Shown: positions 2,103 through 25,316 of the stretch, one piece after another | Layout: each line of letters opens with the position of its first letter | Numbering within the stretch: position 1 is the first letter of the stretch | Source: an uncultured Eubacteriales bacterium | GTDB taxonomy: Bacteria > Bacillota > Clostridia > Christensenellales > Aristaeellaceae | Reading direction: 5' to 3' | Length of the DNA stretch: 32,961 bases | Assembly: GCA_902790495.1 (NCBI GenBank) | Contig: CADASK010000036.1 | Coordinates: 1 to 32,961 of the forward strand | Notes under the pieces: generated by a model | What the model saw: only the letters and a program-made list of their open reading frames with translations | Told to the model about the DNA's origin: nothing | Database searches by the model: none | Position numbers and translations under genes: made by a program

Positions 2103-2237
2103 GGCGGCCGAAGAGTCCAGAGGCGATCGGAAAGCCTCTGGTCGCCGCCCGCAGGCGGCGAAATCCTCTGATAGCAGGTGTTCCGCGCCTGCGGGCGCGG
2201 GGAGGGGGCTTTGCGATCGCCCCCTCCACCCCTTCGC
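2103..2237. repeat. Two inverted copies of the A/B hairpin repeat
   Basis: Copy 1a (minus, 2103-2164) and copy 1b (plus, 2181-2237) lie head to head with their A hairpins inward, giving tail-B-A:A-B-tail. Copy 1a has A stem CGCCGCC/GGCGGCG and B stem CCAGAGGC/GCCTCTGG. Copy 1b has A stem CGCGCC/GGCGCG and B stem GAGGGGGC/GCCCCCTC. Both A loops are TGCG. The B loops are TTTCCGATC (1a) and TTTGCGATC (1b). Confidence 0.85.
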
Positions 2238-2305
2238 CCCTCGCCCTTACGGCGGTGATATTTATACTCAAATTGAATAAATATACAAGGAGGTGTTCTA
2301 TCCTT

Positions 2306-3100
2306 ATGAAACTATTCATTTCCTCCGACATTGAAGGCACCACCGGCATCACCCTCTGGGACGAAACCACCAACGGTCACTCCCGCTACCCCTACTTCCA
2401 GGAGCAGATGACCCGCGAGGTCGCCGCGGCCTGCGAGGGCGCTCTGGCAGCGGGCTGCGACGACATCCTCGTCAAGGACGCCCACGACAGCGCCTGCAAC
2501 CTGATCCCCCTGAAGCTCCCCGAGGAGGTGCGCATCTTCCGCGGCTGGGGCAGCGACATCATGAGCATGATGGCCGGGCTGGAGCGCGGCTATGACGGCG
2601 TGTTCTTCACCGGGTACCACTCCGCCGCCGGCATGGACACCAATCCCCTCTCCCACACCATGAACACCCGCAACAACTACGTCCGCATCAACGGCATCAT
2701 CGCCCCGGAGCTGATGATCAACAGCCTCACGGCGGCCTACCTCGGCGTGCCCGTGCGCCTGGTGACCGGCGACAGGGGCCTGTGCGAGTGGATGCAGGCC
2801 ATCAACCCCAACGTGGAGACCGTCGCGGTCAGCGAGGGCCGCGGGCGGGGCTCCATCTCCATCCACCCGAACAAGGCGGTGCGGTTGATCCGCGAGGCCG
2901 CCGAGCGCGCCATGAAGAAGGACGCGGCGGACTGCATGTTCCCGCTGCCGGAGCACTTCCACGTGGAGATCTCCTTCAAGGATCACTATCGTGCGAAGGG
3001 CGCGAGCTATCCCGGGGTGAGGCAGACCGGTACCATCACGGTGGAGTATGACGCCGAGGATTGGATGGATGTCCTCAGGATGCTGGACAATGTTCTGTGA
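2306..3100 (+). CDS. dppA: M55 family D-aminopeptidase (DppA-like)
   Basis: 264 aa, close to the roughly 270 aa of Bacillus subtilis DppA, a zinc D-aminopeptidase that releases D-Ala from D-Ala-D-Ala and similar peptides. The metal ligands of the family are visible: Asp8 and Glu10 in SSDIEG, His60 in KDAHDS, His105 in GYHSAAG and Glu135 in IIAPELMIN. No signal peptide, so it acts in the cytoplasm. Start chosen at the ATG at 2306, with AAGGAGGT at 2287-2294 spaced 11 nt upstream; the open frame further upstream runs through the repeat pair and is not coding. It is separated from the aminotransferase by 244 bp containing that repeat pair, so it may have its own promoter, though I see no convincing one. 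A strong terminator follows. Confidence 0.92.
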   Translation: MKLFISSDIEGTTGITLWDETTNGHSRYPYFQEQMTREVAAACEGALAAGCDDILVKDAHDSACNLIPLKLPEEVRIFRGWGSDIMSMMAGLERGYDGVFFTGYHSAAGMDTNPLSHTMNTRNNYVRINGIIAPELMINSLTAAYLGVPVRLVTGDRGLCEWMQAINPNVETVAVSEGRGRGSISIHPNKAVRLIREAAERAMKKDAADCMFPLPEHFHVEISFKDHYRAKGASYPGVRQTGTITVEYDAEDWMDVLRMLDNVL

Positions 3101-3108
3101 GTAAAACA

Positions 3109-3155
3109 AAACGCTTTCGGAAGCGTCCATTGCGGATGCGTCCGAAAGCGTTTTT
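3109..3155 (+). terminator. Intrinsic terminator after dppA
   Basis: AACGCTTTCGGA (left arm from 3110) pairs with TCCGAAAGCGTT (3141-3152). An inner GCGTCC/GGATGC stem caps it, and TTTTT (3151-3155) follows. Confidence 0.88.
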
Positions 3156-3194
3156 CTTCTATCCTTCCAAATTGGATTGTTCAATTGAAACGCA

Positions 3195-3328
3195 TGCGGC
3201 CGAAGAGTCCAGAGGCGATCGGAAAGCCTCTGGTCGCCGCCCGCAGGCGGCGAAATCTCCTGCGCAGAGGTTCCGCGCCTGCGGGCGCGGGCAGGGGGCT
3301 TTGCGATCGCCCCCTGCACCCCTTCGCA
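3195..3328. repeat. Two inverted copies of the A/B hairpin repeat
   Basis: Same head-to-head arrangement as the pair at 2103-2237. Copy 2a (minus, 3195-3256) matches copy 1a over about 60 bp. Copy 2b (plus, 3271-3328) has B stem CAGGGGGC/GCCCCCTG where copy 1b has GAGGGGGC/GCCCCCTC, so both sides of the stem changed together. Confidence 0.85.
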
Positions 3329-3369
3329 TCGCCTTTACAGGCAACTAAACGATTTGGCAGCAAAAGCAT

Positions 3370-4413
3370 TTACCACTGCTTCAGCTTCAGCAGATTATCC
3401 ACCACGGCCATGGATTCCTCCAGGCGGCGGGTGTAGTCCCCGCGGACGAAGACAATCTTGTCCCCGAAGCCAAACTCCCTGTACATGCCGATCAGGCGCT
3501 CGTTGAGCTTCTCGCGGCGCTCCTGGTCGCCGTTGAGGCGCTGGCCGTCCGCCACCCACTTCACGTCGGGCAGCAGGTACAGCAGCACGTCGTACTTCTC
3601 CGGGTTGATGAAGGCCTCCACGATGCGGTTGCGGTGCCCCATGTACAGCTCGCTGTAATAGTTGGTCACCACCGCGTCGGTGTCAAAGAAGCAGACCTTG
3701 TTGGAGGAGCGCAGGGCCTCGTAGTCCTGCTCGGCCTGCAGGTAGGCCATGCGGGCGAAGTCGTCGTCCGTGTAGATGGTCTCGTCCCCCGCCAGGTAGT
3801 GGTGGGCGTAATACCGGCCTACCTCCTCCGACCAGGAGGTGTTGTAGAGCTTGGCCAGGCACTTGGTCAGCGTGGTCTTGCCGCAGCTCTCGGTGCCCGC
3901 GATCAGCACCTTCTTGGCGAAGAAGGGACGCGCCGGGCCGAGGATGTAGTGCCAGTTGTTGAGGATGTCCGAGCGGATCTCCGTGGCGGAGATGGGGTAG
4001 CGCGTCCGCGAGGGGTCGAACAGCTCGATGACGCTCTCCGGGAAGTAGGTCTTCAGCGGCTCCACGTCACTCTGGTCCCCGAGGAAGAAGGCGTTGATGG
4101 TCTCCGGCACCACCTCGCGCATCCGCTGGCTCCACTCGGGCCAGCCGAAGGGCTCCTCCGCGATGTCCGTCTCGTCCAGCACCCGCACCTCGATGTGCTC
4201 CATGTCCTGCACCTGCTGGCCGATCCACTGCTTGCGCAGCTGGTAGGTGACGGTCGGCAGGCCGGCCTCCCGGCAGATGCGCTCGGTCTGCGCGCGGTTG
4301 TCGGAGATGACCACGATCAGCTTCTCGCAGCGGGTCGAGGCCTCGATCATCTGGTAGAGGTGGCCGCGGTGCGGCGGGCAGAAGCGGCCGAAGTAGACGC
4401 CGGTCTGGTACAT
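3370..4413 (-). CDS. nadR: NadR-like NMN adenylyltransferase / nicotinamide riboside kinase
   Basis: 347 aa, two enzyme domains for NAD salvage. Residues about 1-155 are a nucleotidyltransferase with the phosphate-binding motif PPHRGH (His15, His18) and the second motif ISATEIRSD (141-149); it would join NMN to ATP to give NAD. Residues about 165-347 are a P-loop kinase with GTESCGKTT (173-181), expected to phosphorylate nicotinamide riboside to NMN. Enterobacterial NadR has an extra N-terminal helix-turn-helix that represses NAD genes; here the protein begins directly with the transferase domain, so no repressor role is expected. The start at 4413 is set by AGGAGGT (4421-4427) 7 nt upstream. 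It is a single-gene unit, separated from the GNAT gene by a terminator and a repeat copy. No PnuC transporter is in the window. Confidence 0.9.
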   Translation of the reverse strand: MYQTGVYFGRFCPPHRGHLYQMIEASTRCEKLIVVISDNRAQTERICREAGLPTVTYQLRKQWIGQQVQDMEHIEVRVLDETDIAEEPFGWPEWSQRMREVVPETINAFFLGDQSDVEPLKTYFPESVIELFDPSRTRYPISATEIRSDILNNWHYILGPARPFFAKKVLIAGTESCGKTTLTKCLAKLYNTSWSEEVGRYYAHHYLAGDETIYTDDDFARMAYLQAEQDYEALRSSNKVCFFDTDAVVTNYYSELYMGHRNRIVEAFINPEKYDVLLYLLPDVKWVADGQRLNGDQERREKLNERLIGMYREFGFGDKIVFVRGDYTRRLEESMAVVDNLLKLKQW

Positions 4414-4476
4414 GGTAGTTACCTCCTGTGGCTTTTCAAGGCGCTCCCGTTTGATACTACGCCTTATTTCGCAGAA

Positions 4477-4535
4477 GAGGTTTCGGCCTGCGGGCCGACC
4501 CGGGGGCTTTGCGATCGCCCCCGGGACCCCTTCGC
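4477..4535 (+). repeat. A/B hairpin repeat, copy 3
   Basis: A stem TCGGCC/GGCCGA with TGCG loop, B stem CCCGGGGGC/GCCCCCGGG with loop TTTGCGATC, tail ACCCCTTCGC. Identical to copy 6 (12830-12888) over about 60 bp. Lies upstream of nadR, on the opposite strand. Confidence 0.85.
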
Positions 4536-4577
4536 CTCCCTATGCAAAATCAAAAAACTTGAAGGCCCTTCATTCAC

Positions 4578-4610
4578 AAAAACTCCTCCGATTGCGCGAA
4601 GGAGTTTTTT
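4578..4610 (-). terminator. Intrinsic terminator after the GNAT gene
   Basis: AAAACTCC (4579-4586) pairs with GGAGTTTT (4601-4608) around a 14-nt loop. On the minus strand the right arm ends in a run of T, so it ends the prs-GNAT transcript; the A/T runs on both sides could also act in the plus direction. Confidence 0.8.
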
Positions 4611-4613
4611 CTT

Positions 4614-5129
4614 TTATGCTTCCGTTTTTGCGGAGATGGCATAGCTGTAGCGCACCTGCAGCAGGCTGTACCCGTTGCGGTTGACCGTGCGCGTTTCCGA
4701 GTCCCGGCGGAAGCCGTAGTGCTCGAACAGGAAGCGCGCGCGGAAATTGTCCTTGAGCAGCCAGAGATACACCCTGGCGCAGCCGAGCTGCCGCATGTTC
4801 GCCACCGCGTGGTTCACCAGCGCGATCTTGTGCTCGGCCACGGCGGGCGTGAGTATCTCCACCAGCTCGATCCAGCTCTCGGCCTTCTCCCGGTCGATCC
4901 AGTAGACCATCAGGCCGCAGATCTCGCCGTTCTCGCAGATATAGTCCAGGGTCCAGCCCTGCTTCTGCCACTGCTGCAGCTCATGCTTCACCGCGTCGCG
5001 GTCAAGCCGGATCAGTGAGTCGCTCGGGATGTAGCCCTGGAAGCGGTTTTGCACAAAGCGGATGCGAAAATCCGCCAGCCGCCCGCAGTCAAACTGGCCT
5101 GCGGTGCGGATATCCGTGATCGTCCCCAT
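4614..5129 (-). CDS. GNAT family N-acetyltransferase
   Basis: 171 aa. It has the general layout of a Gcn5-related acetyltransferase: a central acetyl-CoA region, and a C-terminal stretch with NFRARFLFEHYGF, matching the family N-x-x-A-x-x-F-Y-x-x-x-G-F pattern. The acceptor (small molecule, protein or antibiotic) cannot be told from sequence. The ATG lies 6 nt after the stop of the PRPP synthetase gene and has no clear Shine-Dalgarno of its own, so it is probably translated by coupling to prs. The two genes share a terminator at 4578-4610. No residue suggests a known drug-resistance subgroup. Confidence 0.8.
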   Translation of the reverse strand: MGTITDIRTAGQFDCGRLADFRIRFVQNRFQGYIPSDSLIRLDRDAVKHELQQWQKQGWTLDYICENGEICGLMVYWIDREKAESWIELVEILTPAVAEHKIALVNHAVANMRQLGCARVYLWLLKDNFRARFLFEHYGFRRDSETRTVNRNGYSLLQVRYSYAISAKTEA

Positions 5130-5135
5130 AGCGTT

Positions 5136-6356
5136 TCAGACCAGCCGGATGCCGGCGGCCTGCTGCTCCTTCTTGTAGTTGTCCAGCAGCTTCTGGATGC
5201 GATTGTAGGGATTGAGCAGCTTGCTCAGCGAGCGGTTGTGGTTCAGCGTCGCGATGATGTAGGAGATGTACTTGCTCATGTCCGCCTCCACAAACCAGGG
5301 CGCTTCCTTCAGCTCGGGCCTGCGGTAGGTCAGGTTGGTGGAGATTACGCGGTCGATGACACCCTCGCGGTAGGCCTTGTCGTAGCTCTCGATGCCGTTG
5401 GTGAACAGGGCGAAGGTGCAGGCCGCAAAGATGCGGTTGGCCCGGCGCTTCTTCAGCTCCCGCGCCAGCTCGATGACGCTCTCGCCGGAGGAGATGATGT
5501 CATCCGCCACGAAGATGTCCTTGCCCTCCACGCTGTCGCCGATGTACTCGTGGGCGACGATGGGGTTGCGGCCGTTGACGATGCGAGTGTAGTCGCGCCG
5601 CTTGTAGAACATGCCCATGTCCAGCCCCAGCACGGAGGCGTAGAAGATGTTGCGGTCAATCGCGCCCTCGTCCGGGGAGACGATCATCAGGTGGTCGCGG
5701 TCCAGCTGCAGGGTCTTGTCCTTGCGCAGCAGGGCCTTGAAGACCTGGTAGGAGGGCATCACGCTCTCGAAGCCGCAGGTCGGGATGGCGTTCTGCACCC
5801 GCGGGTCGTGGGCGTCGAAGGTGATGATGTTCTCCACGCCCAGCCGCTCCAGCTCCTGCAGCATGGACGCGCAGTCCAGGCTCTCGCGGGAGGAGCGGCG
5901 GTGCTGCCGGCCCTCGTAGAGCATGGGCATGATGACGTTGATGCGCTTGGCCTTGCCGGCCATGGCGGCGATGATGCGCTTGAGGTCGGCGAAGTGCTCG
6001 TCCGGGCCCATGGGCACGGTCTGGCCGTACATGTCGTAGGTGCAGTTGTAAGCGCCCACATCGCAGAGGATGTAGATGTCGTAGCCGCGCACCGACTCCT
6101 TGATCATGCCCTTGCCTTCGCCATTGCCAAAACGCGGGCACACGGTTTTGATCAGAAAGTCTTGCCTCTGTACACCCGGTGAGGTGCGCATGTCGTCAGA
6201 TTCTCCGCTCTCTTCTGTGTGCTCGCGCCATCTGGTCAGGTATCTATTTACTTTTTCTCCCATTTCCTCGGTGCCGCGCATCGCGATCAGCCCGAGGGGG
6301 CCTACAGGATAGGTCAGAAAGGAATCATTGTTCCAGGTGCTTACAAAATCAGTCAT
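5136..6356 (-). CDS. prs: Ribose-phosphate pyrophosphokinase (PRPP synthetase), long form
   Basis: 406 aa, longer than the usual 310-320 aa. It would make PRPP from ribose 5-phosphate and ATP for purine, pyrimidine, histidine and NAD synthesis. Visible family features are RGYDIYILCDV (strand near the ATP site), GRQHRRSSRESLDC, ITFDAHDPRVQNAIP (counterpart of the metal/ribose loop), and the PRPP loop VADDIISSGESV near residue 282. The extra length is mainly N-terminal (residues about 1-80). Start placed at the ATG at 6356, after GGGGGAG about 5 nt upstream; a longer frame to 6434 would cross the predicted -10 box. It is the first gene of a two-gene unit with GNAT. NadR and PyrR in the same window also act on PRPP- or NAD-linked metabolism, but are not in this operon. 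Confidence 0.88.
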   Translation of the reverse strand: MTDFVSTWNNDSFLTYPVGPLGLIAMRGTEEMGEKVNRYLTRWREHTEESGESDDMRTSPGVQRQDFLIKTVCPRFGNGEGKGMIKESVRGYDIYILCDVGAYNCTYDMYGQTVPMGPDEHFADLKRIIAAMAGKAKRINVIMPMLYEGRQHRRSSRESLDCASMLQELERLGVENIITFDAHDPRVQNAIPTCGFESVMPSYQVFKALLRKDKTLQLDRDHLMIVSPDEGAIDRNIFYASVLGLDMGMFYKRRDYTRIVNGRNPIVAHEYIGDSVEGKDIFVADDIISSGESVIELARELKKRRANRIFAACTFALFTNGIESYDKAYREGVIDRVISTNLTYRRPELKEAPWFVEADMSKYISYIIATLNHNRSLSKLLNPYNRIQKLLDNYKKEQQAAGIRLV

Positions 6357-6393
6357 TGCTTCTCCCCCACTCGGCATGATTTTGTCCCGGCTT

Positions 6394-6423
6394 ATTATAA
6401 CCCAAGTCGGCTGGAAAGAAAAG
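6394..6423 (-). promoter_or_regulatory. Candidate prs promoter
   Basis: A perfect TATAAT on the minus strand (6394-6399) lies 37 nt before the prs start. The -35 region is poor (TTTTCT-like), so the call rests on the -10 box and its position. Confidence 0.45.
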
Positions 6424-6465
6424 CACTTCAGCACCCCGACACAGGAAATTTACATCCTTCGGCCA

Positions 6466-6509
6466 ATCTGGTCGCATAACAAACCAGATGGCTGTTTCCT
6501 CCCAGCCAT
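6466..6509 (-). terminator. Two adjoining hairpins after the CapA gene
   Basis: ATGGCTG (6488-6494) pairs with CAGCCAT (6503-6509), and ATCTGGT (6466-6472) pairs with ACCAGAT (6483-6489). The stems share two bases, so they cannot both form fully. They lie just after the CapA-family stop on the minus strand. The T-tract is weak (GGTTTGTT), so termination is a guess. Confidence 0.4.
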
Positions 6510-6522
6510 TTCCTGTCACGGC

Positions 6523-7656
6523 TCACTCAAAGTCCAGTGGATACTCCTCCACGGCGTACTCCAGCTTCCTGCCGTTGGCCTTCAGGGTGGTCAGCACGCT
6601 GTCGATGGCGGTGTCCTTGGTCAGGATGGTCGGGATGAAATCGTTGCGGTCGGTGCGGGAGGAGATGCGGATAGGGATGATCCGGAAGCCCTCGTTGGTG
6701 ATGGTCTCCCCGCGCTTGCGGAACCGGGTCTGGAACACGAAGCTGGACATGTCGTCGGGCTTGGTGTTGCCGGCAAAGCAAAAATTGCCCAGGGAGTAGC
6801 AGATGTACACGCCCTTGTACAGCTCGATGGGGTTCAGCCGGTGGCTGTGGTGGCCGATGACCAGGTCGGCGCCGGCGTCCACCGCCAGGCGGCCCATGCG
6901 GATCTGGTTCTTGGTGGGCGCGTAGTCCTTCTCATTGCCCCAGTGGAAGGACACCACCACGATGGGGTAGCGCTCCTTGGCCAGGGCGATGTCGGTGGGC
7001 ACCTTGTCCCAAAGGGAATCGTAGCGGTCGATGCACAGGTAGCTGAGCATGGCGATCTCCACGCCCTTCACCTCTTTGACGCCCACGGTGGTGGAATTGC
7101 TCCACACGATGCCCGCGCCCTCCAGGGCCCGCTGGGTGTCCTCGTAGGCCTCCTCGCCGTGATCCATGATGTGGTTGTTCTCCAGGGATACGGCCTCCAC
7201 GCCGTTGTCCGCCAGGATGGACACATAGCTGGGCGGCGCGGAGAAGAGGAACTGGTTGTTCTTCTTGTTCGCCGGCACATAGGTGGAGTCCGTCAGCGTG
7301 CCCTCGAAGTTGACCAGCGTCATGTCGTCGGCCAGCAGGGTGTCGCGCATGTTGCGCATAGTGAAGTTGATGTCCCCGCCCTGGCGCTTCAGCTCGTCGT
7401 TGAAGATGTCCGCCCGCTTGCGGCTGTCCCCGCCGATGGTGAAGTCGCCCGTGCAGGTCAGGGTGATCAGCACGGAGCCGTCGTCCTCGTAAATGCTCTT
7501 CTCCGCCGGCACCGCCAGCTCGTTGCCCTCGTCGTCCAGCATCACCTCCTCGGTGATGAAGCCCGCGATGGAGAAGTCCTCGTCCTCCTCCTCGGCCAGG
7601 GCCAGGAGAGGCAGGGTCATGGTCAGCGCCAGCAGCAGCGCCAGGAATTTGCGCAT
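6523..7656 (-). CDS. Secreted CapA-family (PGA_cap) metallophosphatase-fold protein
   Basis: 377 aa with a signal peptide (MRKFLALLLALTMTLPLLALA, cleavage near residue 21), followed by an acidic stretch and a CapA/PgsA-type domain. Family motifs seen: CTGDFTIGG, VNFEGTLT, SLENNHIMDHGEEA, VVVSFHWGNE, VIGHHSHRLNPIELYKG and YSLGNFCF. Members are linked to poly-gamma-glutamate export or anchoring (CapA/PgsA), but many stand alone, as here, with no capB or capC nearby. Role as an exported hydrolase or polymer-handling protein is inferred. The start at 7656 has GGGAGG (7664-7669) 7 nt upstream. A repeat copy with the extra module lies between it and the upstream aminotransferase. Confidence 0.82.
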   Translation of the reverse strand: MRKFLALLLALTMTLPLLALAEEEDEDFSIAGFITEEVMLDDEGNELAVPAEKSIYEDDGSVLITLTCTGDFTIGGDSRKRADIFNDELKRQGGDINFTMRNMRDTLLADDMTLVNFEGTLTDSTYVPANKKNNQFLFSAPPSYVSILADNGVEAVSLENNHIMDHGEEAYEDTQRALEGAGIVWSNSTTVGVKEVKGVEIAMLSYLCIDRYDSLWDKVPTDIALAKERYPIVVVSFHWGNEKDYAPTKNQIRMGRLAVDAGADLVIGHHSHRLNPIELYKGVYICYSLGNFCFAGNTKPDDMSSFVFQTRFRKRGETITNEGFRIIPIRISSRTDRNDFIPTILTKDTAIDSVLTTLKANGRKLEYAVEEYPLDFE

Positions 7657-7706
7657 CGGTGCGCCTCCCTTCGTTTAATGGGATTTCGCCGCCCCAAAAG
7701 CGGCGG

Positions 7707-7805
7707 GCGAAGGGGTGCAGGGGGCGCCGAACGCCCGGAAAACTCCACAGTGTGGAGTTTTCAGTGAGGCGAAAGCGGCAGCGACATGATCGCAAAGCCC
7801 CCTGC
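7707..7805 (-). repeat. A/B hairpin repeat, copy 4, with apical module
   Basis: Minus-strand copy with B stem CAGGGGGC/GCCCCCTG. After TTTGCGATC the loop is extended by about 62 nt containing the hairpin GAAAACTCCAC/GTGGAGTTTTC. Hairpin A is missing. The module is the most divergent of the five seen. Confidence 0.8.
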
Positions 7806-7837
7806 TAAATGATTAACAGAACAAACGATGGATAAGC

Positions 7838-11578: not shown

Positions 11579-11589
11579 GTTAAAGGGGA

Positions 11590-11697
11590 TTCCGCGCCTG
11601 CGGGCGCGGGTCAGGGGCTTTGCGGTCGGTCCGGGGCTGCCGCCCGCTCTCCGCTGAAAACGCCATAACATGGCGTTTTCCGGGCGCCTTCGCCCGC
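11590..11697 (+). repeat. A/B hairpin repeat, copy 5, with apical module
   Basis: A stem CGCGCC/GGCGCG with TGCG loop is intact. The B left arm (TCAGGGGC) and the extra module are present, but the B right arm is deleted. In the module hairpin GAAAACGCCAT/ATGGCGTTTTC, a T-A pair of the other copies is replaced by G-C on both sides. Confidence 0.8.
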
Positions 11698-11749: not shown

Positions 11750-11912
11750 TCTTGGCTCTCCCTCTGGGAGAGCTGTCGAGCGAAGCGAGACTGAGAGGGC
11801 TGGCGCGGCAGAATCGTTACGATCACCCCGGTCTTAAGTTCGGCCTTCGCAAAGCAATCAAGCCTTCCCCTTTGGGGAAGGTGGCAGCCCGCTGGCGGGC
11901 TGACGGATGAGG
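11750..11912 (+). repeat. Two tandem hairpin repeats of a second family
   Basis: Unit one (about 11750-11803) has GGCTCTCCC/GGGAGAGC, then TGTC, then a short GAGCGAAGCGA hairpin and GACTGAGAGGG. Unit two (about 11861-11912) has CCTTCCCC/GGGGAAGG, then TGGC, then AGCCCGC/GCGGGCT and GACGGATGAGG. They share layout rather than sequence. From memory, similar elements are scattered between genes in many gut Clostridia; I cannot check this here. Confidence 0.65.
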
Positions 11913-12829: not shown

Positions 12830-12888
12830 GAGGTTTCGGCCTGCGGGCCGACCCGGGGGCTTTGCGATCGCCCCCGGGACCCCTTCGC
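12830..12888 (+). repeat. A/B hairpin repeat, copy 6
   Basis: Same sequence as copy 3 (4477-4535): A stem TCGGCC/GGCCGA, B stem CCCGGGGGC/GCCCCCGGG, loop TTTGCGATC. Lies directly after rfbF. Its tail is followed by GCATGCGCTTCAATTG, closely matching the outer flank of copy 2a. Confidence 0.85.
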
Positions 12889-12962: not shown

Positions 12963-13070
12963 GGCGAAGGGTTGCAAGGGGCTCGGAGCGCCCGGAAAAC
13001 TCCATGTTATGGAGTTTTCAGCGGAGAGCGGGCGGCAGCCCCGGACCGACCGCAAAGCCCCGCGCGGAAC
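12963..13070 (-). repeat. A/B hairpin repeat, copy 7, with apical module
   Basis: Minus-strand copy. The B stem is shortened to GGGGC/GCCCC. The 65-nt module is complete, with GAAAACTCCAT/ATGGAGTTTTC. Hairpin A has lost about 10 nt including the TGCG loop. It sits in the predicted rfbG leader. Confidence 0.8.
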
Positions 13071-13106
13071 CCCCTGCAACAGATTTGTAACACAGGAGTT
13101 GCATTC

Positions 13107-15529: not shown

Positions 15530-15586
15530 GCGAAGGGGTGCAGGGGGCGATCGCAAAGCCCCCTGCCCGCGCCCGCAGGCGCGGAA
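15530..15586 (-). repeat. A/B hairpin repeat, copy 8
   Basis: Minus-strand copy with A stem CGCGCC/GGCGCG, TGCG loop, B stem CAGGGGGC/GCCCCCTG and loop TTTGCGATC. It fills most of the 115-bp gap between rfbH and the GtrA gene and ends about 37 nt before that start codon. Confidence 0.85.
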
Positions 15587-15623
15587 TCCTCCTGTAACAA
15601 CGGAAAAACCAGTTTCACTCAAT

Positions 15624-17093: not shown

Positions 17094-17153
17094 CCGAAGG
17101 TTTCCAAAGGGCGATCGGAAAGCCCTTTGGTCGCCGCCCGCAGGCGGCGAAAT
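17094..17153 (-). repeat. A/B hairpin repeat, copy 9
   Basis: Minus-strand copy. A stem CGCCGCC/GGCGGCG with TGCG loop, B stem CCAAAGGGC/GCCCTTTGG with loop TTTCCGATC. It ends 7 bp before the -35 box of the MscS promoter. Confidence 0.85.
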
Positions 17154-18355: not shown

Positions 18356-18373
18356 CCAACAGAAGACCCCAGA

Positions 18374-18407: not shown

Positions 18408-18468
18408 CACTTTCGCGTGTTGCTCAGCGAGCCGGCAGCCGTCTTCCGCTGAGAGGTGTCCCTGAGGA

Positions 18469-18497: not shown

Positions 18498-18568
18498 GAT
18501 CCTCAGATCCAGGGCCGGCAGCGTGTCGCTGACGCTCTGCCGGCGCGGTGTCCCGAGGAGGAAGCATG

Positions 18569-19084: not shown

Positions 19085-19122
19085 GACACATCATCCATAT
19101 ATAGAGTGAAGGAGGGTCCGGC

Positions 19123-19557: not shown

Positions 19558-19558
19558 G

Positions 19559-21028
19559 ATGAGACGGGAAACCTGGTGGCAGCGCCACCGCCCGACGACT
19601 AGGCGGCTGGTCCAGGTCTACAGCGCGCTGCTGTACAACGCGCACCTGAAGGGCTTCGTGACCGGCGAGATCTACCGGGGCCCCGCCAAGGCGCTCTGCG
19701 TCCCGGGCCTCAACTGCTATTCCTGCCCCGGCGCGGTGGCCGCCTGCCCGCTGGGCGCGCTGCAGAACGCCCTGGCCTCCACAGGCCACCGGGCGGGCTG
19801 GTACGTCCTGGGCATCCTGCTGCTCTGCGGCGTGATGCTCGGCCGGACGGTCTGCAGCTGGCTCTGTCCCCTCGGCTGGCTGCAGGAGCTGCTGCACAAG
19901 CTCCCGACGCCCAAGCTCAGGAAATCCGCCGTGACCCGGGCGCTGACCTGGCTGAAGTACATTGTGCTGGCGGTGTTCGTCATCGCCCTGCCCCTATGGT
20001 ACGGCCTGGCCCAGGACATGCCGCTGCCCGCCTTCTGCAAGTACATCTGCCCGGCGGGCACGCTGGAGGGGGCCATGGGCCTCCTGCCGACGCACCGGGA
20101 TTTCTTCGGTATGCTGGGCGTCCTGTTCACCCAAAAATACGTGATCATGCTGGTCGTCGGCCTGGCCTGCGTGTTCTGCTACCGCTCCTTCTGCCGCTTC
20201 CTGTGCCCGCTGGGCGCGATCTACGGCCTGTTCAACCGCTTCAGCGTCGTCGGCGTCCGGGTCGACCCGAACCGCTGCAGCCAGTGCGGCGCCTGCGTGC
20301 GGCACTGCGAGATGGACATCCGCAGCGTGGGCGACCGCGAGTGCATCCACTGCGGGAAGTGCATGGCGCACTGCAGCCAGGGCGCCATCTCCCTGCAGGC
20401 CGGGAAGCTCACGCTGATGGCCCCGGAGCTCCCCGGAAAGGAAACAGCCCCGGAAGCCCATCGAAAGCAAAAGGCCCTCGGCCGGGCGCTCTGGGGCGCG
20501 GCCCTGGCGGTGCTCTGCTTCGCCCTGCTGTGGTTCAACGTGCTCGACCCCGCCAGCGCAAAGGAAACGGAACCGCGCTGGGAAAGCGACGCCCCCGTCG
20601 GCTGGGAGGTCGGCCAGCAGCTGGAGGATTTCACCGCGGACTGCCTGGACAGCAGCGTCTTCCACCTGGCGGAGCACCGCGGGGAGGTCGTCTTCATCAA
20701 CCTGTGGGCGACCTGGTGCACGCCCTGCGTCCATGAGCTGCCTTTCTTTGACGTCCTGGCCCGGGAGAAGGCCGACGCGGCCGTGCTGGCCATCCACTCC
20801 GCCCTGGTGACCGACGACCCGGCCGCCTACCTGGCGGACAAGGGCTACACCATCCCCTTCGCGACGGACACGGAGGACGAGCGGCTGTTCCGCCTCGTCA
20901 ACGGAAGCGCCACCCTGCCCCAGACCATTGTCCTGAACCGCTCAGGCGAGGTGGTGTACAACCAGGTCGGCTCCGTGACGATTGAGGCGCTGGAGGCCCT
21001 CTACGACACCGCGGCCGCCGAACCTTGA
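19559..21028 (+). CDS. Membrane 4Fe-4S ferredoxin fused to a TlpA-like thioredoxin domain
   Basis: 489 aa, two parts. Residues 1-330 are a polytopic NapH/YccM-like iron-sulfur protein: LNCYSCPGAVAACPLG (51-66), two Cys-Pro membrane motifs WLCPLG (101-106) and FLCPLG (214-219), KYICPAG (161-167), and two ferredoxin clusters C240-x2-C243-x2-C246-x3-C250 and C262-x2-C265-x2-C268-x3-C272. After a membrane segment (about 309-328), residues 345-489 are a TlpA/ResA-like thioredoxin with NLWATWCTPCVHELPFF (CxxC 387-390) and a cis-Pro region SATLPQTIV. The topology suggests electrons pass from the clusters to an extracytoplasmic dithiol, replacing CcdA/DsbD. That path is inference. Start taken at the ATG at 19559, 1 nt after the previous stop; a TTG at 19550 is the alternative. 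Confidence 0.82.
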   Translation: MRRETWWQRHRPTTRRLVQVYSALLYNAHLKGFVTGEIYRGPAKALCVPGLNCYSCPGAVAACPLGALQNALASTGHRAGWYVLGILLLCGVMLGRTVCSWLCPLGWLQELLHKLPTPKLRKSAVTRALTWLKYIVLAVFVIALPLWYGLAQDMPLPAFCKYICPAGTLEGAMGLLPTHRDFFGMLGVLFTQKYVIMLVVGLACVFCYRSFCRFLCPLGAIYGLFNRFSVVGVRVDPNRCSQCGACVRHCEMDIRSVGDRECIHCGKCMAHCSQGAISLQAGKLTLMAPELPGKETAPEAHRKQKALGRALWGAALAVLCFALLWFNVLDPASAKETEPRWESDAPVGWEVGQQLEDFTADCLDSSVFHLAEHRGEVVFINLWATWCTPCVHELPFFDVLAREKADAAVLAIHSALVTDDPAAYLADKGYTIPFATDTEDERLFRLVNGSATLPQTIVLNRSGEVVYNQVGSVTIEALEALYDTAAAEP

Positions 21029-21104
21029 CGGAAACAAAGGCATTGCGCAGCAAAAAGGGGCTGTGCGCCGTTGGATAGAAAACAGACAACAGGAGGTCAG
21101 ATCC

Positions 21105-22103
21105 ATGAAAAAGCATGGCTGGTTGGCACTGGTGCTGGCACTGACGCTGGCGTTTGGATCCATGGGCACGTCATCGGCGCAGATCTTTCCGCCCGCCGGC
21201 GAGGGACAGTTCGGCCTGTCGGCCGTGGTGCTGTGCGAAGCGCTGCCCGTCCATCAGGAGCCAAGCGCTTCCGCCGCCACGGTGAAAACCCTGAGCTTCG
21301 GCGACATCATCATCGTGCAGCCCGGGGAGGACGGCTGGGCCGCCTGCTTTCTCTCCGACGACGTGGACAGCAGCCAGGCGGGCTACGTCCAGACCGCTGA
21401 CCTGGGCGTCGACCCCGGCTGGTTCCTCACAGAGGATCCCACGCCGGTCTACGCCTGGAACGACACCGCGGCCCCCCGCCTCGCGCTGCTGGAGCCCAAC
21501 ACCCTGGTGCCCGTGCTGAAGACCGAGGGCAGCTGGGCCGTGATCAGCCTTCCGGGCGCGGCCGGCTGGGTGTATGTCTCCAGCCAGACCGCGAGGCAGA
21601 ACGGGGAACGGTTTGAAGCCACCGTCGTGCTGGAGGGCATGGAGGAGACCATCCGCTGCGAGCACATCGTCAACGACAGCCTCGGCATTGAGATGGATTA
21701 CGACTACGAGAGCTTCCTCCGCCTCAGCGAAGGGGGCCGGGAATGCTTCATCTCCTTCTACGACGACCCGCAGCAGCCCCTCAACCGCCTGGAGGTGACC
21801 TTCACGCCCCAGGACGCCGAGGCTGCCGCCGACGCCGTCAGCGCATCCCTCTCCGGCGCGTACGAGGTCATCCGGGAGCACCGCACCCTGCAGAACGCGG
21901 GCGACTGCACCGTGATCGACGCCTCCCGCGAGAAGGGCACCGACCGGATGCCCGATCTGCTGCAAACGGTGTACGTCATCCCTGCGCCGGGCGGCTCCAT
22001 CGTGGCCGCGGCCCAGTACACGGTCGAGGGTGCCGAGGGCTTCGGCGCGCGGATCAGCCAGATGATGAACACCCTCGCCCTCACCGGCGAGCGGACGCAG
22101 TGA
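21105..22103 (+). CDS. Secreted SH3-like domain protein
   Basis: 332 aa. Signal peptide about 1-25 (KKHGWLALVLALTLAFGSMG, then AQIFPP). Two SH3b-like stretches follow: LCEALPVHQEPSASAATVKTLSFGDIIIV (about 38-100) and TPVYAWNDTAAPRLALLEPNTLVPVLKTEGSWAVISLPGAAGWVYVSS in outline (about 113-160), the second with the W-x-x-V/I...G-W-V-Y-V end typical of wall-binding SH3b units. The C-terminal half (about 165-332) is an alpha/beta region I do not recognise. It may dock to wall peptides and serve as a client of the thioredoxin protein before it. AGGAGGT (21091-21097) is 7 nt upstream. Last gene of the four-gene set, 76 bp after the previous stop. Confidence 0.75.
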   Translation: MKKHGWLALVLALTLAFGSMGTSSAQIFPPAGEGQFGLSAVVLCEALPVHQEPSASAATVKTLSFGDIIIVQPGEDGWAACFLSDDVDSSQAGYVQTADLGVDPGWFLTEDPTPVYAWNDTAAPRLALLEPNTLVPVLKTEGSWAVISLPGAAGWVYVSSQTARQNGERFEATVVLEGMEETIRCEHIVNDSLGIEMDYDYESFLRLSEGGRECFISFYDDPQQPLNRLEVTFTPQDAEAAADAVSASLSGAYEVIREHRTLQNAGDCTVIDASREKGTDRMPDLLQTVYVIPAPGGSIVAAAQYTVEGAEGFGARISQMMNTLALTGERTQ

Positions 22104-22138
22104 TTGCGGGCGGCGCTTGTCTGTCCCCTCTGCACTAA

Positions 22139-22179
22139 AACAGGGCTGCTGCACGAACAAAAAGTGCAGCAGCCCTGTT
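22139..22179. terminator. Bidirectional hairpin between convergent genes
   Basis: AACAGGGCTGCTGCAC (22139-22154) and its perfect complement (22164-22179) form a 16-bp stem with a 9-nt loop. On the minus strand it is followed by TTTTAG; on the plus strand the T content is low. It separates the SH3 and EAL genes. Confidence 0.75.
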
Positions 22180-22219
22180 GCTGTTGATACGATTCTCATT
22201 TATGGTTATCTTTCAAAAA

Positions 22220-22343
22220 GAGGTTTCGGCCTGCGGGCCGACCCGGGGGCTTTGCGATCGATCCGGGGCTGCCGCCCGCTCTTCGCTGAAAACTCCATAA
22301 CATGGAGTTTTCCGGGCGCTCTGAGCCCCCGGGACCCCTTCGC
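22220..22343 (+). repeat. A/B hairpin repeat, copy 10, with apical module
   Basis: Same core as copies 3 and 6 (A stem TCGGCC/GGCCGA, B stem CCCGGGGGC/GCCCCCGGG). After GATC (22256-22259) it carries 65 extra nt (22260-22324), then resumes at GCCCCCGGG. Copies 3 and 6 are its empty form. Confidence 0.88.
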
Positions 22344-22359
22344 AGCGTCGAAAAGGGTA

Positions 22360-23142
22360 TCACTTATGCCCCATCGGCAGGGCGTAGAGCTTCACGTACT
22401 TCTCCATCTCCTCCATGGTCATGGGCGGGCTGATCAGCGAGCCCTGGCCCTTGAAGGTGCCGATCTCCTCGAAGAACTCGAACTGATCCTGGGTCTCGAT
22501 GCCCTTGGCGCACAGGAACATATCGATGGTGTGGGCCATGTGCTGGATGGCGATGGCGATCTTGCAGGTCAGCTCGTCCTCCGGGATCTGGGCGGCATAG
22601 CTGCGGTCCAGCTCCAGACCGTCGAAGTGGATGCGGCGCAGCAGCGGCATGTTCGTGCGCGAGGTGCCGAAGTTGCCCATCACCAGGGCCACGCCCAGCT
22701 CGTCGTGGATGATGTTCAGGTTGCGGCAGCCGTCGTCGTTGATGTCCTGCAGCTCGCTGACCTCGAACTGAAGGCGCTTGGCCTCCAGGTCAAAGTCGTT
22801 CAGGCAGGTGCGCACCTGCTCCACAAAGTTGTCGCTCTCGGCGAACTTGGGCAGCAGGTTGAGCGAGAGGGTCAGATTGGACTTCACGCGCAGGCTGATC
22901 TCCTTGGTCTGGCGCACGGCCTCGCGCAGCAGGGTGATGGAGAAGAGCATCGTGAGGGCCTCGTCCTTCTCGATGATCTCCAGGATCGGCCAGGAGGGGA
23001 TCAGGCTGCCGTCTGCCGCCTTGAAGTAGGCCGCATAGACTTCATAAGTATTGCAGGTGTTCTTGCCGAACGTCCACTTGGGCTGGGCGTTGAGCACCAT
23101 GGTATTTTTCAGGATCATGTCGGAAATCGTGCCGAGTTCCAT
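22360..23142 (-). CDS. Degenerate EAL-domain protein
   Basis: 260 aa, essentially one EAL domain. The fold is visible in order: YEVYAAYF (33-40) where the EAL motif should be, LSLNLLP (93-98), LQFEVSELQDI (124-134), VMGNFGTS (154-161), FDGLELDRS (173-181), AKGIET (212-217) and GQGSLISPP (232-240). Active c-di-GMP phosphodiesterases have EAL, DDFGTG, LKIDxS and EGVET here. This protein has EVY, GNFGTS, Glu for the Lys, and Lys for the Glu, so metal binding and catalysis should be lost. It may still bind c-di-GMP or a protein partner. The start at 23142 has GGAGG 8 nt upstream. No signal peptide or membrane segment. Monocistronic. Confidence 0.82.
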   Translation of the reverse strand: MELGTISDMILKNTMVLNAQPKWTFGKNTCNTYEVYAAYFKAADGSLIPSWPILEIIEKDEALTMLFSITLLREAVRQTKEISLRVKSNLTLSLNLLPKFAESDNFVEQVRTCLNDFDLEAKRLQFEVSELQDINDDGCRNLNIIHDELGVALVMGNFGTSRTNMPLLRRIHFDGLELDRSYAAQIPEDELTCKIAIAIQHMAHTIDMFLCAKGIETQDQFEFFEEIGTFKGQGSLISPPMTMEEMEKYVKLYALPMGHK

Positions 23143-23312
23143 CGTGAAGCCTCCTTCGGGTGTGATGTTGTCTATGGGGCAGGTTTTCTATCTGGTATGA
23201 TTCCACGTATTTGGTCAATATCCTGCCAGCCGTGACATTTTTTGCAGATTTTTCAAATGACAATTTCATATCAATCTTTACTTTTCTGACAGAGGAGTTT
23301 CCTCTCTATGCG
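23143..23312. other. AT-richer leader region upstream of the EAL gene
   Basis: About 170 bp with lower GC than its surroundings. It should hold the EAL promoter on the minus strand; a TTGACC is present near 23213 but no convincing -10 box lies 17 nt away. I see no small gene. Confidence 0.4.
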
Positions 23313-23450
23313 CAGGGGATTTCGCCGCCTGCGGGCGGTGACCAAAGGGCTTTCCGATCGGTCCGGGGCTGCCGCCCGCTCTCCGCTGAAAACTCCATAA
23401 CATGGAGTTTTCCGAGCGCTCCGAGCCCTTTGGAAACCTTCGGGCCGCAT
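23313..23450 (+). repeat. A/B hairpin repeat, copy 11, with apical module (filled)
   Basis: A stem CGCCGCC with TGCG loop, B stem CCAAAGGGC/GCCCTTTGG, loop TTTCCGATC followed by 65 extra nt at 23360-23424, then GCCCTTTGG and tail AAACCTTCGGGCCGCATC. Apart from the module it differs from copy 12 by little more than one base of the core. Confidence 0.9.
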
Positions 23451-23553
23451 CCTTTGGGTTGAGCTGTTTTATTTGGCTACAGGGGTTATTCTATGAGTAT
23501 TTGGCTTTCCATACGATTGTTCGCGCATACGACCAAAAGCGTGTGCGGGGGGT

Positions 23554-23617
23554 CCGGGGGACACACGTCGCAACGTGTCCCCCGGTGTCCTTTGCTACTT
23601 TCCCACATGGGAAAGTA
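23554..23617. repeat. Two strong adjacent hairpins in a gene-free region
   Basis: CCGGGGGACAC (23554-23564) pairs with GTGTCCCCCGG (23575-23585). Ten bases on, TACTTTCCCA (23596-23605) pairs with TGGGAAAGTA (23608-23617) around a 2-nt centre. No T-tract follows either. They sit between repeat copies 11 and 12 and belong to neither. No coding potential is seen here. Confidence 0.6.
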
Positions 23618-23675
23618 GAACCATCAACTTACGACAGATAGGGTTTTATCATTCAGATTGAATACATTCTATGCA

Positions 23676-23750
23676 GCAGGGGATTTCGCCGCCTGCGGGC
23701 GGCGACCAAAGGGCTTTCCGATCGCCCTTTGGAAACCTTCGGGCCGCATC
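23676..23750 (+). repeat. A/B hairpin repeat, copy 12 (empty)
   Basis: A stem CGCCGCC/GGCGGCG with TGCG loop, B stem CCAAAGGGC/GCCCTTTGG, loop TTTCCGATC, tail as in copy 11. It is the module-free counterpart of copy 11, about 360 bp away on the same strand. Confidence 0.9.
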
Positions 23751-23784
23751 TTTATTCTTGAGCTGTTTTTTATGGCAGCAGGGA

Positions 23785-23807
23785 GATTCCGCGCCTGCGG
23801 GCGCGGG
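23785..23807 (+). repeat. A/B hairpin repeat, copy 13, hairpin A only
   Basis: CCGCGCC-TGCG-GGCGCGG remains; hairpin B is absent. It ends 2 bp before the -35 box of the M42 peptidase promoter. Confidence 0.7.
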
Positions 23808-23808
23808 C

Positions 23809-23837
23809 TTGCACAATTCTGGCATTCGTGCTAAGAT
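23809..23837 (+). promoter_or_regulatory. Promoter of the M42 peptidase gene
   Basis: TTGCAC (23809-23814), 17-nt spacer, TAAGAT (23832-23837), 60 nt before the start codon. Confidence 0.65.
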
Positions 23838-23896
23838 GACTGCGGTTTCGGGATATCATCCATCTGTGATCACATACTGAAGGGAGTCTATCGCTC

Positions 23897-24946
23897 ATGA
23901 GCGCATCCAATACCTTTGCCTTTGACGAGGCGTACTGCCTCGACCAATTCCGCCGCCTGCTTGCCATCGATTCCACCACCAGCCAGTTCCGGGAGATCCA
24001 GGACTACGTCGTCGGCGAGATCGGGCGCCTCGGCTTCCCCGTGACAGTCACCCACAAGGGCGGCGTCATCGCTGACCTGGGCGGCGAGGGCAATCCCCTG
24101 GTCGTCAGCGCGCACCTGGACGACATCGGCCTGATGGTGCGCCACATCAACGCGGACGGCACGCTGAACGTGTGCTCCGTCGGCGGCCTCTATCCGCTGT
24201 ACTGCCTGGAGGAAAACGTGCGCGTCTACACCCGGGACGGCAAGGTCTACACCGGCACCGTCTGCCGCACGCCTAACTCCATCCACGTCACCGAGGAGGA
24301 GCTGCGCACCACCCTCAGCGACTACCGCAAGAATGTGTGCGTCGTGCTGGACGAGCCGGTGAAGTGCGCCGAGGACACCCGCGCCCTGGGCGTGGAGACC
24401 GGCGACATCATCGCCCTGGAGACCCGCATGACCATCTCCAACGGCTACATCAAGAGCCGCTTCGTGGACGACAAGGCCTGCGCCGCCGTGCTGCTGGCCG
24501 CCATGAAGTATATCAAGGAAAACAAGGTCGCCCTGCCCCGCAAGGTGCTGGCCTACTTCGCCATGTATGAGGAGATCGGCCACGGCACTACCTACCTGCC
24601 CGAGGGCGTGAAGGACTACCTGGCCCTGGACATCGCCCCCACCGGCCCCGAGCAGAACTCCGAGGAGCACCTGGTGTCCATCTTTGCCAAGGACTCCCGC
24701 TTCCCCTACCACTGGGAGATGACCAGCGAGCTGCGGGAGACCGCCATCCGCTGCGGCATCGACTATGTGATGGACATCTTCACCCCCCACTACGGCACCG
24801 ACGGCGACGCCTCCGTGCTGGCCGGCTACGACATCCGCCACGCCGCCATCGGCCCCGGCACCGCCAACAGCCACGGCTACGAGCGCACCCACATCGACGG
24901 CCTGAAGAACACCTACGCCCTGACGCTGGCCTACATGCTGCGCTGA
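23897..24946 (+). CDS. M42 family metallopeptidase (glutamyl/deblocking aminopeptidase type)
   Basis: 349 aa, usual length. Co-catalytic metal aminopeptidase, forming large cytoplasmic assemblies in known members and trimming peptides from the N-terminus. The ligands can be traced: His73 in SAHLDDIG, Asp191 (bridging, FVDDKA), Glu225-Glu226 in YEEIGHG (one catalytic, one metal), the Asp of ALDIAPTG, and His326 in SHGYERTH. The PDZ-like insert typical of M42 lies around 90-165. The start at 23897 has AGGGAG (23881-23886) 10 nt upstream. No signal peptide. It is a single-gene unit with its own promoter. With the DmpA and M55 enzymes it gives three aminopeptidases in this window, though it is not linked to them. 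Confidence 0.92.
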   Translation: MSASNTFAFDEAYCLDQFRRLLAIDSTTSQFREIQDYVVGEIGRLGFPVTVTHKGGVIADLGGEGNPLVVSAHLDDIGLMVRHINADGTLNVCSVGGLYPLYCLEENVRVYTRDGKVYTGTVCRTPNSIHVTEEELRTTLSDYRKNVCVVLDEPVKCAEDTRALGVETGDIIALETRMTISNGYIKSRFVDDKACAAVLLAAMKYIKENKVALPRKVLAYFAMYEEIGHGTTYLPEGVKDYLALDIAPTGPEQNSEEHLVSIFAKDSRFPYHWEMTSELRETAIRCGIDYVMDIFTPHYGTDGDASVLAGYDIRHAAIGPGTANSHGYERTHIDGLKNTYALTLAYMLR

Positions 24947-25027
24947 AGTTAAACATTTTGTCATCTTTTCGTTGCACAATCGACCTGTTCTGAGAAGAAT
25001 TGGCTGATTGTCGTTCCGGATTTGCTC
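24947..25027 (+). other. 3' region of the M42 gene
   Basis: A weak inverted repeat ACAATC/GATTGT (about 24977-25013) with a small inner TTCT/AGAA stem. No T-tract, so termination is uncertain. Nothing else is seen before the pyrR promoter. Confidence 0.3.
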
Positions 25028-25056
25028 TTTACAAACCCACGGAACTATGCTATACT
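25028..25056 (+). promoter_or_regulatory. Promoter of the pyrR-uraA operon
   Basis: TTTACA (25028-25033), 17-nt spacer, TATACT (25051-25056). Transcription should start near 25063, just before the PyrR attenuator. Confidence 0.82.
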
Positions 25057-25075
25057 GCGCACGGTCATCCAAGCG

Positions 25076-25225
25076 ACCCCTTTAAGGACAGCACAGAGAG
25101 GCTGGAAAGGCGAAGCGGCGATGGAACACCAGACAGGGCCAAGCATTCCCGCATGTCCGGTGACATAGCATGAGCAAAACTGCGCCTTTTCCGCCAATCC
25201 AGCGGAAAAGGCGTTTCTTCTTTTC
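25076..25225 (+). promoter_or_regulatory. PyrR-dependent transcription attenuator
   Basis: The PyrR recognition loop CAGAGAGGCT (25094-25103) is held by AGC/GCT and CCTTT/AAAGG stems (anti-antiterminator). The terminator is CGCCTTTTCCGC (25183-25194) with GCGGAAAAGGCG (25202-25213), followed by a T-rich tract to 25225. GGAAAGGCG (25104-25112), next to the PyrR loop, can instead pair with the terminator's left arm CGCCTTTTCC with one bulge, forming the antiterminator. UMP-bound PyrR would hold the first stem and let the terminator form, cutting pyrR-uraA expression when pyrimidines are plentiful. All three competing elements are visible. Confidence 0.9.
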
Positions 25226-25259
25226 TGCCCGCGAGTCCAAAAGCTCAAACAAGAGCGAC

Positions 25260-25316
25260 GCGAAGGGGTGCAGGGGGCGATCGCAAAGCCCCCTGCCCGC
25301 GCCCGCAGGCGCGGAA
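25260..25316 (-). repeat. A/B hairpin repeat, copy 14
   Basis: Minus-strand copy with A stem CGCGCC/GGCGCG, TGCG loop, B stem CAGGGGGC/GCCCCCTG and loop TTTGCGATC. It lies inside the pyrR leader between the attenuator terminator and the Shine-Dalgarno. Confidence 0.85.

Follow-up and report, generated by a model that had tools for sequence, protein, structure and literature searches.

A stem-following linker in a predicted H-type pseudoknot repeated between the genes of gut Clostridia and present in viral contigs

What is the short sequence that recurs sixteen times, on both strands, within 32,961 nt of DNA from an uncultured gut bacterium, and why do the two arms of its stems change together from copy to copy? 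The stretch analysed, hereafter called the window, is contig CADASK010000036.1 (G000:C36 in our numbering) of a 2.47-Mb draft genome, 94.5% complete, of the Clostridia family Aristaeellaceae. The original prediction, made from the letters alone, described an intergenic repeat with two hairpins, A and B, whose structure is kept by compensatory change. The repeat is indeed present at all 16 places, both strands carry it, and its stems and loops are as they had been named. Building a covariance model from the window copies and searching the genome, its relatives and Rfam, as had been suggested, yielded many copies and no Rfam family. Comparison of these copies indicates that the core of the element is very probably an H-type pseudoknot of about 31-40 nt, and its linker follows the sequence of stem B.

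In a typical copy, a purine run and TT precede hairpin A; then come stem B, whose two arms enclose the loop TTT-S-CGN-TC, a linker, and the tail TTCG-S'. Loop B had been taken for a plain hairpin loop. Instead, it pairs with the 3' tail: G or C at position S of the loop is matched by C or G at the tail end in all 13 window copies in which the pseudoknot is complete (ten short and three long forms). The same complementarity holds in 130 intact copies parsed from 24 genomes. In a second set of 321 distinct copies with the loop motif and stem, drawn from 50 genome labels (some of which denote one genome under two names, e.g. SVHA and G035, so that some copies are counted twice), seven lack the TTCG tail, and the other 314 comprise 266 C-G pairs, 45 G-C pairs and three exceptions. 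A third set, from which identical contexts were removed and in which viral copies were included and the TTCG tail was required, gives 373 C-G, 56 G-C and four exceptions in 433 copies. Both kinds of pair occur inside several single genomes. In the predicted fold, stem 1 would correspond to the stem B of the original prediction and be followed by the loop UUU; stem 2 would form between SCGN in the loop and UCGS' in the 3' tail, with the two bases UC left over, and the linker would cross stem 1.

The strength of this pairing was evaluated in a set of 84 distinct cores that fall into a single length class. A count that takes the pseudoknot into account finds 95.0% of the cells paired (82.3% after shuffling), the covariation score is 0.379 (0.158 shuffled), and 148 cells are changed on both sides (44.9 shuffled); none of 500 shuffles reaches any of these values. 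Eight of the 13 pairs change on both sides, which was equalled by three of the 500 shuffles, and sliding the partner by one column lowers the pairing to 56%. The outer pair of stem 2 is C-G in 56 cores, G-C in 24 and unpaired in four, while its fourth pair, in which the tail U is fixed by the search pattern, is A-U in 50, G-U in 24 and C.U in 10, and never U.U. Three features are thus established by covariation, namely stem 1, the outer pair in stem 2 and the parallel correspondence between linker and stem described below. The covarying stems stand in the order of an H-type pseudoknot, with stem 2 resting on its outer pair. The earlier claim of selection on a folded structure is therefore strongly supported, and extends beyond two hairpins, since the observed covariation was never matched in 500 shuffles. 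The octamer to which attention had been drawn, GCGATCGC, is merely the loop-stem junction in one subtype. An additional outer stem, formed by the purine leader with the linker or with downstream bases, was rejected: it can be drawn in single copies only, the leader is independent of the linker type, and the flanks of 30 copies from the source genome pair no better than mismatched flanks.

An unusual feature of the element is the linker between the 3' arm of stem B and the tail, whose length and bases track the stem: CC-AAAGG-GC is accompanied by AAACC, CC-AGG-GC by ACC, CC-AGGGG-GC by ACCCC, and CC-AGAGG-GC by ACTCC. We aligned the two in parallel, with the 3' base of the linker facing the third base of stem B from the loop, in 82 distinct stem-linker types. 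A stem G faces a linker C at 272 of 279 positions; a stem A faces A 77 times, T 18 times, G seven times and C four times; a stem C faces A (10) or G (6), and a stem T faces A (8) or G (5). The mutual information between linker and stem is 0.79, compared with a mean of 0.257 and a maximum of 0.358 in 1000 shuffles of linkers within length classes, and with 0.261 at most in other registers or antiparallel readings. Because the copies from viral contigs and from genome G120 were drawn with patterns that fix GGC beside the loop, the test was repeated without the first linker position, which gave 0.844 (shuffles at most 0.333); for the non-viral copies alone (51 types) the value is 0.761, with shuffles reaching 0.434 at most and the next best register 0.407. 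Asymmetric stems distinguish the parallel from the antiparallel arrangement, as in GGGAG with CCCTC (G120), AGAGG with ACTCC, and AAGGGAGG with AACCCTCC, where the stem was deduced from its 3' arm. Exceptions to the rule occur, e.g. AAAGGAGGC with GCTCCC. The linker follows the stem in one register, as a third strand would, and the simplest structural reading is that it lies in a groove of stem 1. Such a strand would run parallel to the 5' strand of the stem, with C facing G-C pairs and A or U facing A-U pairs.

The element is not confined to cells. Two scans of viral contigs revealed 103 distinct copies at 71 loci, 74 of them without hairpin A. Since viral and host copies share the pseudoknot and its code, and hairpin A is missing from so many of the viral ones, we regard the pseudoknot as the selected core. 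Among the 74 copies without hairpin A, 33 are preceded on the sense strand by an open-frame stop codon at a distance of at most 25 nt (15 of them at 0-2 nt), as against 7.9% of random positions, and 22 have such a stop on the sense strand only, compared with five on the antisense strand only. Among the 29 viral copies with hairpin A, a stop is nearby in four on the sense and in two on the antisense strand. By a heuristic, the next sense start codon with a purine-rich upstream sequence lies within 80 nt in 25 of the 33. We compared with PHROGs 30 upstream open reading frames (ORFs), namely 28 from the 33 together with those of the second copy at locus L240 and of locus L254. Virion or packaging functions were assigned to 21 of them: ten major head proteins, two major tail proteins, two portal proteins, two tape measure proteins, one large terminase, two small terminases (both weak or second-best matches) and two adaptor or neck proteins (one weak). 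The remaining ORFs comprise one HNH endonuclease, one primase, two proteins of unknown function and five without a match. One 24-kb contig (L234, L341) carries three cores, of which one follows a gene of unknown function, another that of the head protein and the third that of the tape measure protein.

Past the tail, TTT occurs at +5 to +15 in 36 of 104 viral copies, compared with 13, 11 and 7 in later windows of equal size, and in 10 of 28 copies from the source genome, compared with 4, 8 and 4. The statement that no T-tract follows the element is thus correct for the position directly after the hairpin, where there is no T-run, but it overlooks a T-rich patch about 6-12 nt past the tail in the viral copies and those of the source genome.

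The viral core often sits where a message 3' end or a processing site between cistrons would be useful. We consider it likely that the core works as RNA, because the fourth pair of the pseudoknot takes G-U and never U.U, and because the viral copies lie on the sense strand behind stop codons. That it is specifically a 3'-end or intercistronic element of phage messages, acting as a barrier or a pause, is a proposal which we hold with evenly divided confidence. According to it, the core would fold at the 3' end of the message on leaving the polymerase, and its mechanically stable end would either stop 3'-to-5' exonucleases or hold the polymerase over the downstream T-rich patch; one would expect such exonucleases to be effectively blocked by a pseudoknot that contains a third strand, and the polymerase could be slowed by it. 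The outcome would be intercistronic 3' ends behind strongly needed phage genes, e.g. that of the major head protein. In the genomes of the family, the same core, mostly with hairpin A and sometimes with a helical insert in the loop, has multiplied between genes in both orientations and with fast turnover. More tentatively still, the element may represent an undescribed RNA class with a stem-reading third strand, which serves as a detachable 3'-end module behind virion genes of phages and was taken up and amplified by bacteria as a REP-like repeat without the REP transposase (REP, repetitive extragenic palindromic). If this is true, the sharing between phage and host would point to a parasitic RNA element moving between them, or to a host repertoire that interacts with RNA control in the phage.

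A number of observations weigh against these proposals. The first is the placement of the host copies. The covariance model R1, built from the alignment of ten short window copies, was run on the window and 15 sampled stretches of the same genome (333 kb together) and gives 57 hits with E<=0.1. Of these, 51, the loop motif being present in 46, were retained for the analysis of gene context after six weak ones (E of 0.005 or more) had been dropped. Between co-directional genes, 16 of the 51 are sense and 18 antisense; nine lie between convergent and four between divergent genes, and four within ORFs. Over the sampled host loci 42 of 304 copies are sense and 43 antisense by rough gene calls, which place 57 inside ORFs (taken for caller error and kept in the count). 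Such strand-neutral placement is not predicted by a 3'-end function of each copy. In other hosts TTT at +5 to +15 is not enriched (63 of 317 copies; 125, 67 and 42 in later windows), in a set dominated by amplified lineages. Furthermore, of the 74 viral copies that lack hairpin A, 16 have a stop codon close by on the antisense strand, which exceeds the random level of 7.9%. The association with virion genes is partly a matter of ascertainment, as short viral contigs are picked by their hallmark genes, which biases strand and stop distance less than the kinds of genes, and the viral contigs are assumed to infect this Clostridia family. With respect to the fold, the inner two pairs of stem 2 (CG with CG) are fixed by the search patterns and hence uninformative, the strand test of G.U against A.C in the stem gives no clear excess (16 versus 13 and 9 versus 8), and the copies and types are related by descent, so that p-values overstate their independence. 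The original view that the element is most simply an RNA is therefore likely and yet unproven, given the strand-neutral host copies and the lack of a clear excess of G.U over A.C.

The first alternative is that the element is a mobile repeat at the DNA level only, akin to REP/REPIN sequences or to miniature inverted-repeat transposable elements (MITEs), whose folded single strand is a transposase substrate, with the hairpins and the tail-loop pairing providing the guide and the cleavage site, and without any function as RNA. Much in the behaviour of the host copies agrees with it. R1 finds at least 150 copies across the whole source genome, the two orientations are equally frequent, and the stems are nearly strictly Watson-Crick. 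Within the genus, 11 of 12 genomes are positive and the copy number is patchy, ranging from 0 to at least 150. Wider sampling shows the element in 41 of 200 genomes of the family (13 of 50 genera) and, at E<=1e-4, in eight of 396 genomes drawn from the order, seven of them from the same family and one from another. In cells, the element is thus nearly restricted to a single Clostridia family within the order that was sampled; bare pseudoknots are undercounted, because R1 needs hairpin A to score well. Beyond the order, the matches to one exact pattern (at least 80; among those listed) come by title from uncultured Clostridia, Clostridiales, Eubacteriales, Ruminococcus and Christensenellaceae, several titles mentioning goat, sheep, deer or buffalo gut.

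Turnover is also evident. We compared 26 copies from three regions with the congener G010, in which the aligned DNA is about 75-93% identical. Twelve copies at nine sites had syntenic flanks on both sides; eight of these sites (11 copies) are without the pseudoknot loop in G010, one of them being a long-form remnant, and at one site a copy is shared. Since eight of the nine flanked sites are without the loop, copies come and go between species; the congeners are too diverged for exact insertion ends to be read from the empty sites. Two copies in head-to-head orientation can also behave as one unit, as the pair at 3200-3327 shows, which has full-length matches at several other places in the genome. 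The copies are unevenly spread, with two in 120 kb of contig 1 (G000:C1, L001-L006) compared with 14 in the 33-kb window; the copy-poor contig is either a young region or binned contamination.

On the other side of the balance, the transposase that such a repeat would need could not be associated with it. No Y1_Tnp domain is found in the source genome, and among 200 genomes of the family (both draws of 200 being treated as identical) it is present in 77, i.e. in 14 of the 41 that carry the element and in 63 of the 159 others, as well as in three of the 14 genomes with the highest copy numbers among the matches listed. The TnpB domain PF07282 is absent from all 12 genomes of the genus, which also argues against a guide RNA of the IS200/IS605 kind. 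Neither Y1_Tnp nor TnpB shows an association with the element, and both were rejected as mobilisers. Moreover, hairpin A is absent from most of the viral copies, which at gene ends are found preferentially on the sense strand, and we know of no triplex-like linker code in transposase substrates of this type. We therefore regard a purely DNA-level repeat as unlikely. The spread of the host copies is a separate matter: it is highly plausible that they spread as DNA by an agent other than an associated REP-type transposase. In view of their strand neutrality and turnover they look like a mobile repeat and need not work where they lie.

The second alternative is in fact a special case of the 3'-end proposal, and it is about equally unlikely. 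Here the core would be a pseudoknot-type intrinsic terminator or pause, whose fold is completed at the RNA exit channel when the polymerase stands over the T-rich patch, causing partial termination behind the head gene. The patch itself, in viral copies and those of the source genome, and the position behind genes of major head proteins agree with this, and a review (PMC12288461) gives 11-12 nt between a pause hairpin and the RNA 3' end. The element resembles intrinsic terminators and pause hairpins, as described there, in that a GC-rich fold at the end of a gene is followed by T-rich DNA; unlike them, it is a pseudoknot, and its patch lies about 6-12 nt away instead of adjoining the hairpin as in ordinary terminators. 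In addition, the T-runs show no excess in other hosts, in many cases another gene begins a short way downstream, and the NusG pause motif TTNTTT at +3 to +18 gives no clear signal in viral copies (7 of 104; later windows, 5 and 1).

Another reading is that of a small ribozyme that cleaves itself, or of an antitoxin RNA like ToxI, in which pseudoknot repeats lie beside a toxin gene. The element is, as this reading would require, a compact pseudoknot with fixed unpaired bases, and the tandem arrays of about 110-nt units in genome G025 (see below) could be accommodated by it. We consider this very doubtful, as no copy tested, in the window or at 10 viral loci, has a match in Rfam even at E<=1. 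No match to Rfam 15 at the gathering score was found in the window, and at E<=1 there are three sub-threshold matches in the window and one in the 10 viral loci, all of them away from the copies. Translational recoding at phage head genes, by readthrough of the stop codon or frameshifting, could call on the pseudoknots that stand right behind stop codons, but it is hardly credible, given that the distance from stop to stem varies from 0 to 22 nt (0 in eight of 33), which would place the fold inside the ribosome in many copies, and that host copies are intergenic and in both orientations.

With respect to known systems, the closest parallel in behaviour is with REP sequences and their composite forms, the bacterial interspersed mosaic elements (BIMEs) and REPINs, which according to PMC3733652 and PMC3116915 are likewise short, palindromic, high-copy and intergenic, form inverted pairs copied as units, and turn over fast. 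The present element shares the high copy number, the extragenic location and the inverted doublets propagated as units. In PMC3733652 the REP/REPIN hairpin is described as carrying a GTAG or CGTC tag at its base, and a term search of that paper gave no mention of Firmicutes, Clostridi or pseudoknot. Our element has neither tag, its conserved foot consisting of RRRR-TT in front of hairpin A and of TTCGS at the very 3' end, and its source genome lacks the Y1 tyrosine transposase of the RAYT type. Unlike REP, it is about 60 nt long, comprises two hairpins and a pseudoknot, has no link to Y1, and in viral contigs mostly dispenses with the first hairpin.

In structure, the parallel is with H-type pseudoknots that contain a triple helix between loop and stem, such as those of telomerase RNA, the SAM-II and preQ1 riboswitches and the frameshift signals of luteoviruses. 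The predicted fold shares with them stem 1, stem 2, a short loop 1 and a linker crossing stem 1; unlike in those examples, the linker covaries with many stem variants, and no ligand, frameshift or telomerase context is seen. The ENE of PAN and MALAT1 is a triple-helix element that protects 3' ends. The principle proposed here, a triple helix that would resist 3'-to-5' decay, is the same, whereas the element folds differently, has neither a poly(A) tail nor a U-rich internal loop, and occurs in bacteria and phages. A search of the literature brought up nothing that we recognised as this element, which does not by itself establish its absence from print. It is a structured nucleic-acid family outside Rfam, with an unusual, readable third-strand code and REP-like behaviour without the REP tag or transposase. 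The 82 stem-linker types amount to natural variation in a base-triple code, sufficient for the rules of triplex formation to be studied by evolution. The element is likewise a candidate for 3'-end control in late operons of phages in a gut lineage of which little is known, and adds a REP-like repeat family that is not associated with the usual transposase.

As to the individual copies in the window, 13 of the 16 have the complete fold, and those at 11590, 12963 and 23785 are damaged or partial. Four copies form two head-to-head pairs. In the first, 2108..2164 (minus strand) is complete, with hairpin A, stem B CCAGAGGC, loop TTTCCGATC, linker ACTC and tail TTCGG, and its partner at 2179..2237 (plus) is complete as well, with stem B GGAGGGGGC, loop TTTGCGATC, linker ACCCC and tail TTCGC. 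The second consists of the complete copies 3200..3256 (minus; stem B CCAGAGGC, linker ACTC, tail TTCGG) on the left and 3269..3327 (plus; stem B GCAGGGGGC, linker ACCCC, tail TTCGC) on the right. Linker ACCCC and tail TTCGC are also found in the complete copies 4478..4535 and 12831..12888 (both plus, stem B CCCGGGGGC) and 15530..15588 and 25260..25318 (both minus, stem B GCAGGGGGC), while the complete copies 17094..17153 (minus) and 23683..23742 (plus) combine stem B CCAAAGGGC with linker AAACC and tail TTCGG. In G010, the gaps orthologous to 12831..12888 and 17094..17153 are without the element, and the site of 15530..15588 holds only the long-form remnant. The copy at 23785..23808 (plus) is truncated to hairpin A.

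The claim that all copies lie between genes holds for 47 of the 51 analysed in the source genome, with four inside called ORFs. Two of these, at 2108 and 2179, lie within the over-extended start of an ORF whose Pfam domain begins only at 2306; the copy at 25260 is taken to be a case of the same kind, and the fourth is at locus L007.

Five window copies (7707, 11590, 12963, 22220 and 23313) are long forms, which had not been told apart before: an insert of 62-65 nt with its own hairpin stands in loop B after the CGATC position. In pseudoknots, the point between stem 2 and stem 1 is a usual place for an extra helix. Three of the five are complete, namely 7707..7805 (minus; stem B GCAGGGGGC, linker ACCCC, tail TTCGC, hairpin A absent), 22221..22343 (plus; stem B CCCGGGGGC, linker ACCCC, tail TTCGC) and 23319..23443 (plus; stem B CCAAAGGGC, linker AAACC, tail TTCGG); the insert measures 62 nt in the first and 65 nt in the other two. 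In the damaged long form 11588..11693 (plus) hairpin A and the 5' arm of stem B are kept and the 3' arm is missing; in 12963..13075 (minus) hairpin A has collapsed and stem B is shortened, with the insert and the tail TTCGC present. Of ten parsed long forms with both arms from the sampled loci, nine obey the S/S' and linker rules and one has a broken tail.

Some copies elsewhere depart from the common pattern. Those at L078:14238, L191:945 and L211:3745 are chimeric, with the 5' arm of stem B from one subtype and the 3' arm and linker from another, and look as if they had recombined in the loop. In G025 the element forms tandem arrays with a unit of about 110 nt (L065:3866-4140 and other loci). 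In G002 the flanks of some copies (L079:9753, 14192 and 16087) are shared over a longer stretch and have ATACYRATCTCAG-like ends, which gives the impression of a core inside a MITE, in a few copies only. Two nucleotides separate one copy in G120 (L060, near 1501-1560) from an ATG downstream, and a purine-rich leader precedes the element.

Finally, the window contains other repeated or structured sequences. Just behind the copy at 11590, a second dispersed palindromic repeat, with CTCTCCCTCTGGGAGAG and CCTTCCCCTTTGGGGAAGG, occupies 11756-11881 (also L015:11766), and DNA up to 11801 has matches of 78-85% elsewhere in the genome. The left edge of the window (1-104) recurs at two other places in the genome (99-100%) and in two congeners (92-94%). 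At 25075-25219, on the plus strand, the PyrR binding site of Rfam is matched below threshold (39.1 bits; gathering score 54), some distance upstream of a xanthine/uracil permease gene.

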